Assembly (NCBI GenBank): GCA_027459605.1
Contig: DAIDHR010000003.1
Span: forward strand, 1-64,000
Direction of reading: 5' to 3'
Source: Alphaproteobacteria bacterium
GTDB lineage: Bacteria; Pseudomonadota; Alphaproteobacteria; UBA9655
DNA: 64,000 bases
Positions 1,135 through 1,687 of the stretch are shown here, in pieces. A program made the position numbers and the translations under genes. The first letter of the stretch is position 1; each line of letters starts with the position of its first letter. The notes beneath the pieces are model-generated. The model ran no database searches and was not told where the DNA came from. It saw only the letters and a program-made list of their open reading frames with translations.

Positions 1135-1181
1135 ACCTCTCCCCTTGTGGGAGAGGTCGCTGCGAAGCAGAGGGTGAGGGG
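1135..1181 (+). repeat. left inverted repeat flanking the DUF559 gene
   Basis: A 47-bp imperfect inverted repeat matching 1516-1562 in reverse complement. Its outer part is itself a palindrome (ACCTCTCCCC-TTG-TGGGAGAGGT). Its inner part has a small hairpin, CTGC-GAA-GCAG. The inner edge (GAGGGGG) lies 9 nt before the nuclease ATG and may act as its Shine-Dalgarno sequence. Confidence 0.85.
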
Positions 1182-1190
1182 GATTTTAGG

Positions 1191-1499
1191 ATGACTCTAA
1201 TGTTAAAAAGCTTTCAAAAAGCCCTCCACACAAATCAAACAAACGCTGAGAGTCGTCTTTGGTATTATCTGAGAAGCCGAAGGTTTCAGAGGTGGAAGTT
1301 TAGGCGTCAACACATGCTACAAGGTTACATCGTTGATTTTGTTTGCCCTGAAAGAAAACTCGTGATTGAACTTGATGGGAGACAACATGCAGATCAACAA
1401 ACCTATGATAATCATTGTACACAAGTTCTTGAAAAAGATGGATTTAAAGTTATACGTTTTTGGAATAACGATGTGCTGACTAACTTAGAAGGCGTATGA
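1191..1499 (+). CDS. DUF559 (Vsr-like) endonuclease-fold protein, C-terminally truncated by UGA
   Basis: A 102-residue DUF559 protein related to very-short-patch-repair-type PD-(D/E)xK nucleases. Visible hallmarks are the N-terminal NAESRLWYYLRSR helix, KFRRQH, the catalytic-type strand YIVDFVCPERKLVIELDG with QHA, and VIRFWNNDVL near the end. The gene stops at TGA (1497-1499) just after LEGV. The same frame continues as ETILNTPHPP and runs through the right repeat to TGA at 1566-1568, as is common for members of this family that end in repeat-derived sequence. This suggests a recent nonsense change (TTG or TGG to TGA) or readthrough. Function in vivo is unknown. Confidence 0.85.
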   Translation: MTLMLKSFQKALHTNQTNAESRLWYYLRSRRFQRWKFRRQHMLQGYIVDFVCPERKLVIELDGRQHADQQTYDNHCTQVLEKDGFKVIRFWNNDVLTNLEGV

Positions 1500-1515
1500 G
1501 AGACGATCTTAAACA

Positions 1516-1562
1516 CCCCTCACCCGCCGCTGTGCGGCGACCTCTCCCACAAGGGGAGAGGT
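1516..1562 (-). repeat. right inverted repeat flanking the DUF559 gene
   Basis: Reverse complement counterpart of 1135-1181. The outer palindrome is identical. The inner hairpin is CGCCGC-ACA-GCGGCG here against CTGC-GAA-GCAG on the left, so several base pairs have changed on both sides of the stem and pairing is preserved. Confidence 0.85.
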
Positions 1563-1687
1563 AAATGAGCCCCATTCTTCACAAATTTTCATGAGGTGGC
1601 CCTGCTGCCGTCCGCAGGGTCGCGCAAGGTGTTTTTTCAAAACACCGTTAAGTGCACTTTCGAAAATTTTGATTTTCTTAGGACAGT

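Follow-up and report, generated by a model that had tools for sequence, protein, structure and literature searches.

A DUF559 gene near the beginning of the window (the whole stretch of 64,000 nucleotides analysed here) lies between two inverted repeats of 47 bp at positions 1135-1181 and 1516-1562. This arrangement raises the question whether nuclease and repeats belong together as one unit or are mere neighbours. The repeats named in the preliminary description were recovered on both sides of the gene, and the inverted arms extend over 69 nt (1133-1201 and 1496-1564) with 81% complementarity, far above chance. Each repeat unit starts with the palindrome ACCTCTCCC-CTTGT-GGGAGAGGT, continues with a 15-nt inner stem and ends with the tag GGTGAGGG; in both units the tags face the gene and the palindromes lie outermost (Table 1). 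As single-stranded DNA each unit forms a pair of hairpins, with z scores of -2.8 and -4.3 relative to dinucleotide-shuffled sequences, the left inner stem CGCTGCGAAGCAGAG carrying a single G/A mismatch. The G-rich end of the left repeat lies directly upstream of the ATG at 1191, and a ribosome-binding role for it is possible from this position.

The inner hairpins of the two repeats had been noticed to differ by paired changes, and a covariation test on the inner stem bore this out. Among 27 distinct aligned units, four of the six pairs of the inner helix were changed on both sides; cells changed on both sides numbered 18, compared to 5.0 +/- 1.7 in shuffled alignments (reached in 0 of 500), and were also far above the counts for slid partners. 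Compensatory change maintains the inner stem.

The gene between the repeats matches the DUF559 profile PF04480 with E 2.7e-36 (124.2 bits, curated cut-off 20.6), while the Y1 profile (PF01797) gave no match to it and TIGR00632 (vsr) matched the protein weakly (E 9e-4, 19.5 bits, curated cut-off 97.85). The predicted structure (pLDDT 81) matches 3hrl, the structure of the DUF559 protein NGO0050, the catalytic domain of the homing endonuclease I-Bth0305I and the mismatch endonuclease Vsr, the latter two being among its best fold matches (ranks 2, 9 and 11); the DUF559 domain is also common to E. coli YcjD. The conserved residues E20, D49, E60, D62 and H66 would fit a Vsr-like PD-(D/E)XK site. 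The right repeat had been read as the C-terminus of the protein. The protein of the window copy terminates ahead of the repeat, at an in-frame TGA (1497-1499), but the reading holds for relatives (L035, L040), where the frame continues through the repeat (in L035 as ...LETILDAPSPAAVRRPLPQGER). A remnant in a sister species (L039) has a TGA at the same position as the window copy. The window protein also deviates at two nearly invariant positions of the family (G64R and R76C) and, because of the early stop and these two exchanges, we read this copy as decaying, which does not agree with the suggestion of a domesticated unit. An origin from a defence system was considered and rejected, as PADLOC matches were weak (E > 1e-3).

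Table 1. Features of the repeat-flanked DUF559 cassette and of the MITE around it (window positions unless a locus is named).
Feature	Position	Strand	Basis
Composite element: MITE of ~135 bp with outer TIR CAGGGYCACCTCATGAAAATTT, DUF559/repeat cassette in its central palindrome	1066-1604		comparison with empty copies
Left outer palindrome ACCTCTCCCCTTGTGGGAGAGGT	1135-1157		inverted-arm comparison and folding
Left inner stem-loop CGCTGCGAAGCAGAG, GAA-loop (L-type)	1158-1172	+	unit alignment, covariation, folding
Left tag GGTGAGGGGG, gene-facing, possible Shine-Dalgarno	1173-1182	+	conserved in aligned units; pattern search
DUF559 ORF, 102 aa, predicted Vsr-like PD-(D/E)XK nuclease, likely decaying	1191-1499	+	profile search, alignment, model
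Right tag, CCCTCACC on the plus and GGTGAGGG on the minus strand, gene-facing	1517-1524	-	unit alignment, same-genus doublets
Right inner stem-loop (R-type), minus-strand sequence CGCCGCACAGCGGCG	1525-1539	-	alignment, covariation, folding
Right outer palindrome ACCTCTCCCACAAGGGGAGAGGT	1540-1562		inverted-arm comparison and folding
Further MITE copies	L321 281-415; L324 355-491; L326 347-483; L327 420-559		

The own genome (1.91 Mb in 85 contigs) contains a single DUF559 match and several further palindromes. An empty 135-bp version of the element lies at C12:31155 (L010, 2112-2246); it has the same outer flanks and one palindrome and carries no gene. Such MITEs of about 135-140 bp with one central palindrome also occur in the congeneric species G011, G012 and G015, and the outer MITE was seen in this genus only. 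Since the flanks of the window element form a MITE with one central palindrome, we interpret the window locus as a DUF559 cassette inside that palindrome, which is present on both sides of the cassette; the right TIR is exact at 1583-1604 and the left TIR is degenerate from 1066. The cassette may have inserted into this palindrome, or its loss may have produced the empty form. At C12:39725, a second copy retains just its left half plus the very beginning of the gene region. Near-perfect direct repeats of about 10 bp flank two MITE copies (L010 and L324; AAAATGACGT/AAAATAACGT and GTGGTTATAT/GTGGTTATGT) and suggest that an IS was responsible for the outer part. The cassette itself carries terminal inverted repeats, and no clean target-site duplication of it was found at the loci of the genus or of the congeners. 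On one side the element adjoins a DDE_3 transposase-like ORF (PF13358, 96-605). A short ORF on the minus strand at 1688-1948 fuses a signal-peptide-like start to a copy of a GroEL C-terminal segment, 58 bp of which are 97% identical to the final part of the neighbouring groEL.

DUF559 matches were found in 6 of the 17 genomes of the family, some of them broken, with four in G013 and three remnants in G005. Those checked in the genus are bordered by these repeats on one side or on both and differ in their inner stems. Many repeat pairs occur in G005 and G016, and the stretches examined in the genus contained 40 inward-facing pairs, the gene-less ones usually with interiors of 36-150 bp. Several interiors are pieces of DUF559 genes (L038, L041, L043), and many doublets have a GAA-loop at one end and a GCA-loop at the other, just as a full copy has on its left and on its right. 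The gene-less doublets, of which genomes of the genus contain dozens, look like internally deleted, non-autonomous derivatives.

Empty sites, which the preliminary description had proposed to compare, were thus found among the MITEs of the own genome and genus, and also in congeners of other genera. In one genus, 3 of 61 species (G106, G440 and G461) carry, between two conserved genes, a block of about 890 bp made up of DUF559 with a repeat doublet on each side. Two of the three have the gene in reversed orientation, and the majority of the remaining species show a short spacer at that site. The opposite orientations of DUF559 in these three (L250, L267 and L262) correspond to inversion between the doublets or to independent insertion. 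In another genus, G534 lacks the block present in G385, G482 and G533, its flanks are 94-96% identical, and a different short palindromic sequence occupies the site. The congener loci show gain or loss of the block, with exact junctions blurred by divergence. Repeats lying mostly far from DUF559 genes, or a lack both of empty sites and of significant covariation, had been named as grounds for giving up the idea of a unit; as significant stem covariation and empty sites were both found, that objection does not arise in the form in which it was put.

Is the association peculiar to this genus? A scan of GTDB genomes yielded 80 DUF559 loci in Pseudomonadota, Nitrospirae, Gastranaerophilales, Binatia and others, and 30 further loci brought the total to 110. 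At most of the 80 loci a pair of palindrome, linker and tag surrounds the gene; the palindromes are of the types CCCTCTCCC, CCTTCCCCC, CCCCCTCCC, ACTCCCCCC and CCCCTCTTA, and the tag is GGTGAGGG, GGGAGAGGG or GGATGGGGG. The loci are the best-scoring matches, and the following percentages therefore hold for strong DUF559 matches and for sequences closely related to the query: an inverted flanking pair scoring at least 30 was present at 80 of the 110 loci (73%) compared to 2.9% of 863 other ORFs from the same loci, and pyrimidine-armed (C/T-arm) hairpins lay within 220 bp of the gene on at least one side at 92% of the 110 loci and on both sides at 55%, compared to 8% and 0% of 824 control ORFs. 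A strictly inverted layout everywhere is ruled out, as a direct flanking repeat outscores the inverted one at 37 of the 110 loci. On the DUF559 tree the palindrome class changes 13 times, compared to 21.9 +/- 0.9 (minimum 18) for shuffled labels, a difference to which host phylogeny may contribute.

The association was also evident at the level of whole genomes. In 398 Pseudomonadota genomes the pattern CTCACCC-N2-24-CCTCTCCC-N2-9-GGGAGAGG occurred in 111 and its reversed control in none, and DUF559 (E <= 1e-10) was present in 126. Gene and pattern, cross-tabulated from hand-transcribed tables, were found together in 92 genomes, the gene alone in 34, the pattern alone in 19 and neither in 253 (OR 36, p 6e-42); within 16 families the Mantel-Haenszel estimate was OR 15 (p 3e-10). 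DUF559-bearing genomes hold 2236 of the 2464 repeat copies. No clear DUF559 gene was seen in the 19 genomes with the pattern alone, and among palindromes other types exist than the exact pattern absent from the 34. Most repeat copies do lie away from DUF559 genes, but the presence of the repeats depends on the DUF559 of the genome, to which it is tied much as, by analogy, REPs are tied to RAYTs. Across bacteria, gene and repeat superfamily are linked both physically and by phylogeny, and the repeats are spread as singletons and inverted doublets in DUF559-bearing genomes. The flank surveys and the genome co-occurrence thus strongly support, far beyond the window locus, the earlier suspicion that the nuclease and the hairpins belong together.

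We consider it likely that the unit is a REPtron-like cassette in which DUF559 would take the place of the RAYT and would recognise and propagate the REP-type repeats that flank it. According to this model, the DUF559 protein would bind the hairpin of the palindrome or of the inner stem, single-stranded or extruded, together with the tag, and would nick beside the hairpin, in the way known from Vsr or Vsr-like homing enzymes. The repeat, the doublet or the whole cassette would then be copied or pasted elsewhere by the replication and repair of the host. The window would hold one such cassette in the central palindrome of the genus MITE, now decaying. The unit may be the suggested minimal homing or transposition system; by analogy, the closest counterpart is the REPtron with its REPINs, more than a classical homing unit, despite the fold that the enzyme has in common with I-Bth0305I and Vsr. 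Homing enzymes cut the target that receives their gene, whereas the repeats here belong to the unit and are multi-copy. In REPtrons (tnpA_REP/RAYT), too, tagged palindromic repeats stand on either side of a nuclease gene and are dispersed as singletons and inverted doublets, with a repeat class that tracks the enzyme and a patchy distribution (PMC6006769, PMC8266576). However, the REPtron enzyme is an HUH Y1 transposase and the palindrome has the tag GT[AG]G at its foot, whereas the enzyme here is a DUF559 PD-(D/E)XK nuclease and the tag is GGTGAGGG or a variant; the repeats here often have an extra, variable inner stem and show no statistical link to Y1_Tnp. As the unit has neither the HUH enzyme nor the GT[AG]G tag, we do not file it as a REPtron.

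DUF559 might instead be a host nuclease for Vsr-like mismatch repair or genome maintenance, and the repeats bidirectional terminators or insulators, or chance neighbours, with no part in its work. This would accord with the Vsr-like fold, the weak TIGR00632 match and the mismatch repair (VSP repair) proposed for Caulobacter VsrA, a DUF559 protein (PMC12907096). It would also accord with E. coli ycjD (DUF559), which adjoins sapF at one site in 62% of the E. coli genomes (3366 of 5426), so that some DUF559 members are stable. ycjD differs from the cassettes in this stable locus and in having only degenerate repeats nearby, of the CTCACCC type and downstream, with a perfect palindrome upstream (L125, L126); in the one strain examined that lacks it, other genes adjoin fabI, and the site is not a clean empty one. 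We nevertheless regard a pure host function as unlikely, since control ORFs of the same loci so seldom have such hairpins, dispersed repeats co-occur with DUF559 genome-wide, gene-less doublets with gene remnants exist, and positions 950-1700 of the window yielded no terminator-like site. A spread of the repeats by a different enzyme, whether a RAYT/Y1 transposase or a trans-acting IS, with DUF559 as a passenger inserting in, or carried between, REPs, is distinctly improbable. REPs are known targets of IS (ISPpu9, PMC8450116), the own genome has five Y1_Tnp matches, and the cassette sits in a MITE with its own TIRs, two copies of which are flanked by the direct repeats described above. The outer MITE, however, was seen in this genus alone, and across the same 398 genomes Y1_Tnp and the repeats were not associated (OR 1.03, p 0.91): repeats occurred in 46 of 67 genomes with DUF559 and without Y1, in 11 of 143 with Y1 and without DUF559 and in 8 of 129 with neither. 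This independence argues against RAYTs as the driver, a candidate that the test did not support.

The repeats could also be mainly RNA elements that share a transcript with the nuclease and regulate its mRNA, as the Rfam family whalefall-1 (RF01762) might suggest. The passages that describe whalefall-1 (PMC2864571) list it among noncoding RNAs, with whalefall metagenomes as its only source, and state no link to DUF559 or to mobility. RF01762 matches both window repeats (1133-1181 and 1516-1564) over its full length, weakly and below its gathering threshold of 37 bits (17.7-18.3 bits, E 0.038 and 0.057), and exceeds the cut-off in two of 398 genomes, at repeats of the same class (G249, 41 bits; G337, 38 bits). 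Other genomes have matches below the cut-off, and several of the match positions coincide with repeats of this class (among them G227 C4:82185, G339 C12:66245 and G111 C1:399237); the loci L333 and L334 are also matched. The covariation of the inner stem would agree with this reading, but covariation cannot separate DNA from RNA hairpins, and most copies lie far from DUF559 genes, in either orientation and as singletons and doublets. We therefore hold a mainly RNA-based role to be very improbable. RF01762 has the same layout as the repeats here (palindrome, variable stem, GGUGAGG). We think that it describes this same repeat class, and whalefall-1 may be the end of a DNA repeat instead of a noncoding RNA.

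Extended beyond the single cassette, the REPtron-like reading would make DUF559 proteins the enzymes of a second REP superfamily in Pseudomonadota and some other phyla, a generalisation to which we give even chances. These would be non-HUH enzymes of Vsr fold that recognise their own pyrimidine-armed hairpin with its tag and disperse repeats, doublets and their own gene by nicking and copying, with YcjD as a stable member and whalefall-1 as a piece of the superfamily. No link between DUF559 and such repeats was found in the open-access literature searched, and a search for the letters of the repeat in the text of papers gave nothing relevant; judged from this literature, the novelty is provisional. 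DUF559 is common, being present in 126 of the 398 Pseudomonadota genomes and in most E. coli, and has no agreed function; the link to the repeats gives it a testable role. If the generalisation is true, REP-type repeats would have arisen with two enzymes that have no relation to each other, the link would explain many short repeats that at present lack an annotation or are taken for protein tails, and an Rfam RNA family would be recast as the end of a mobile DNA.
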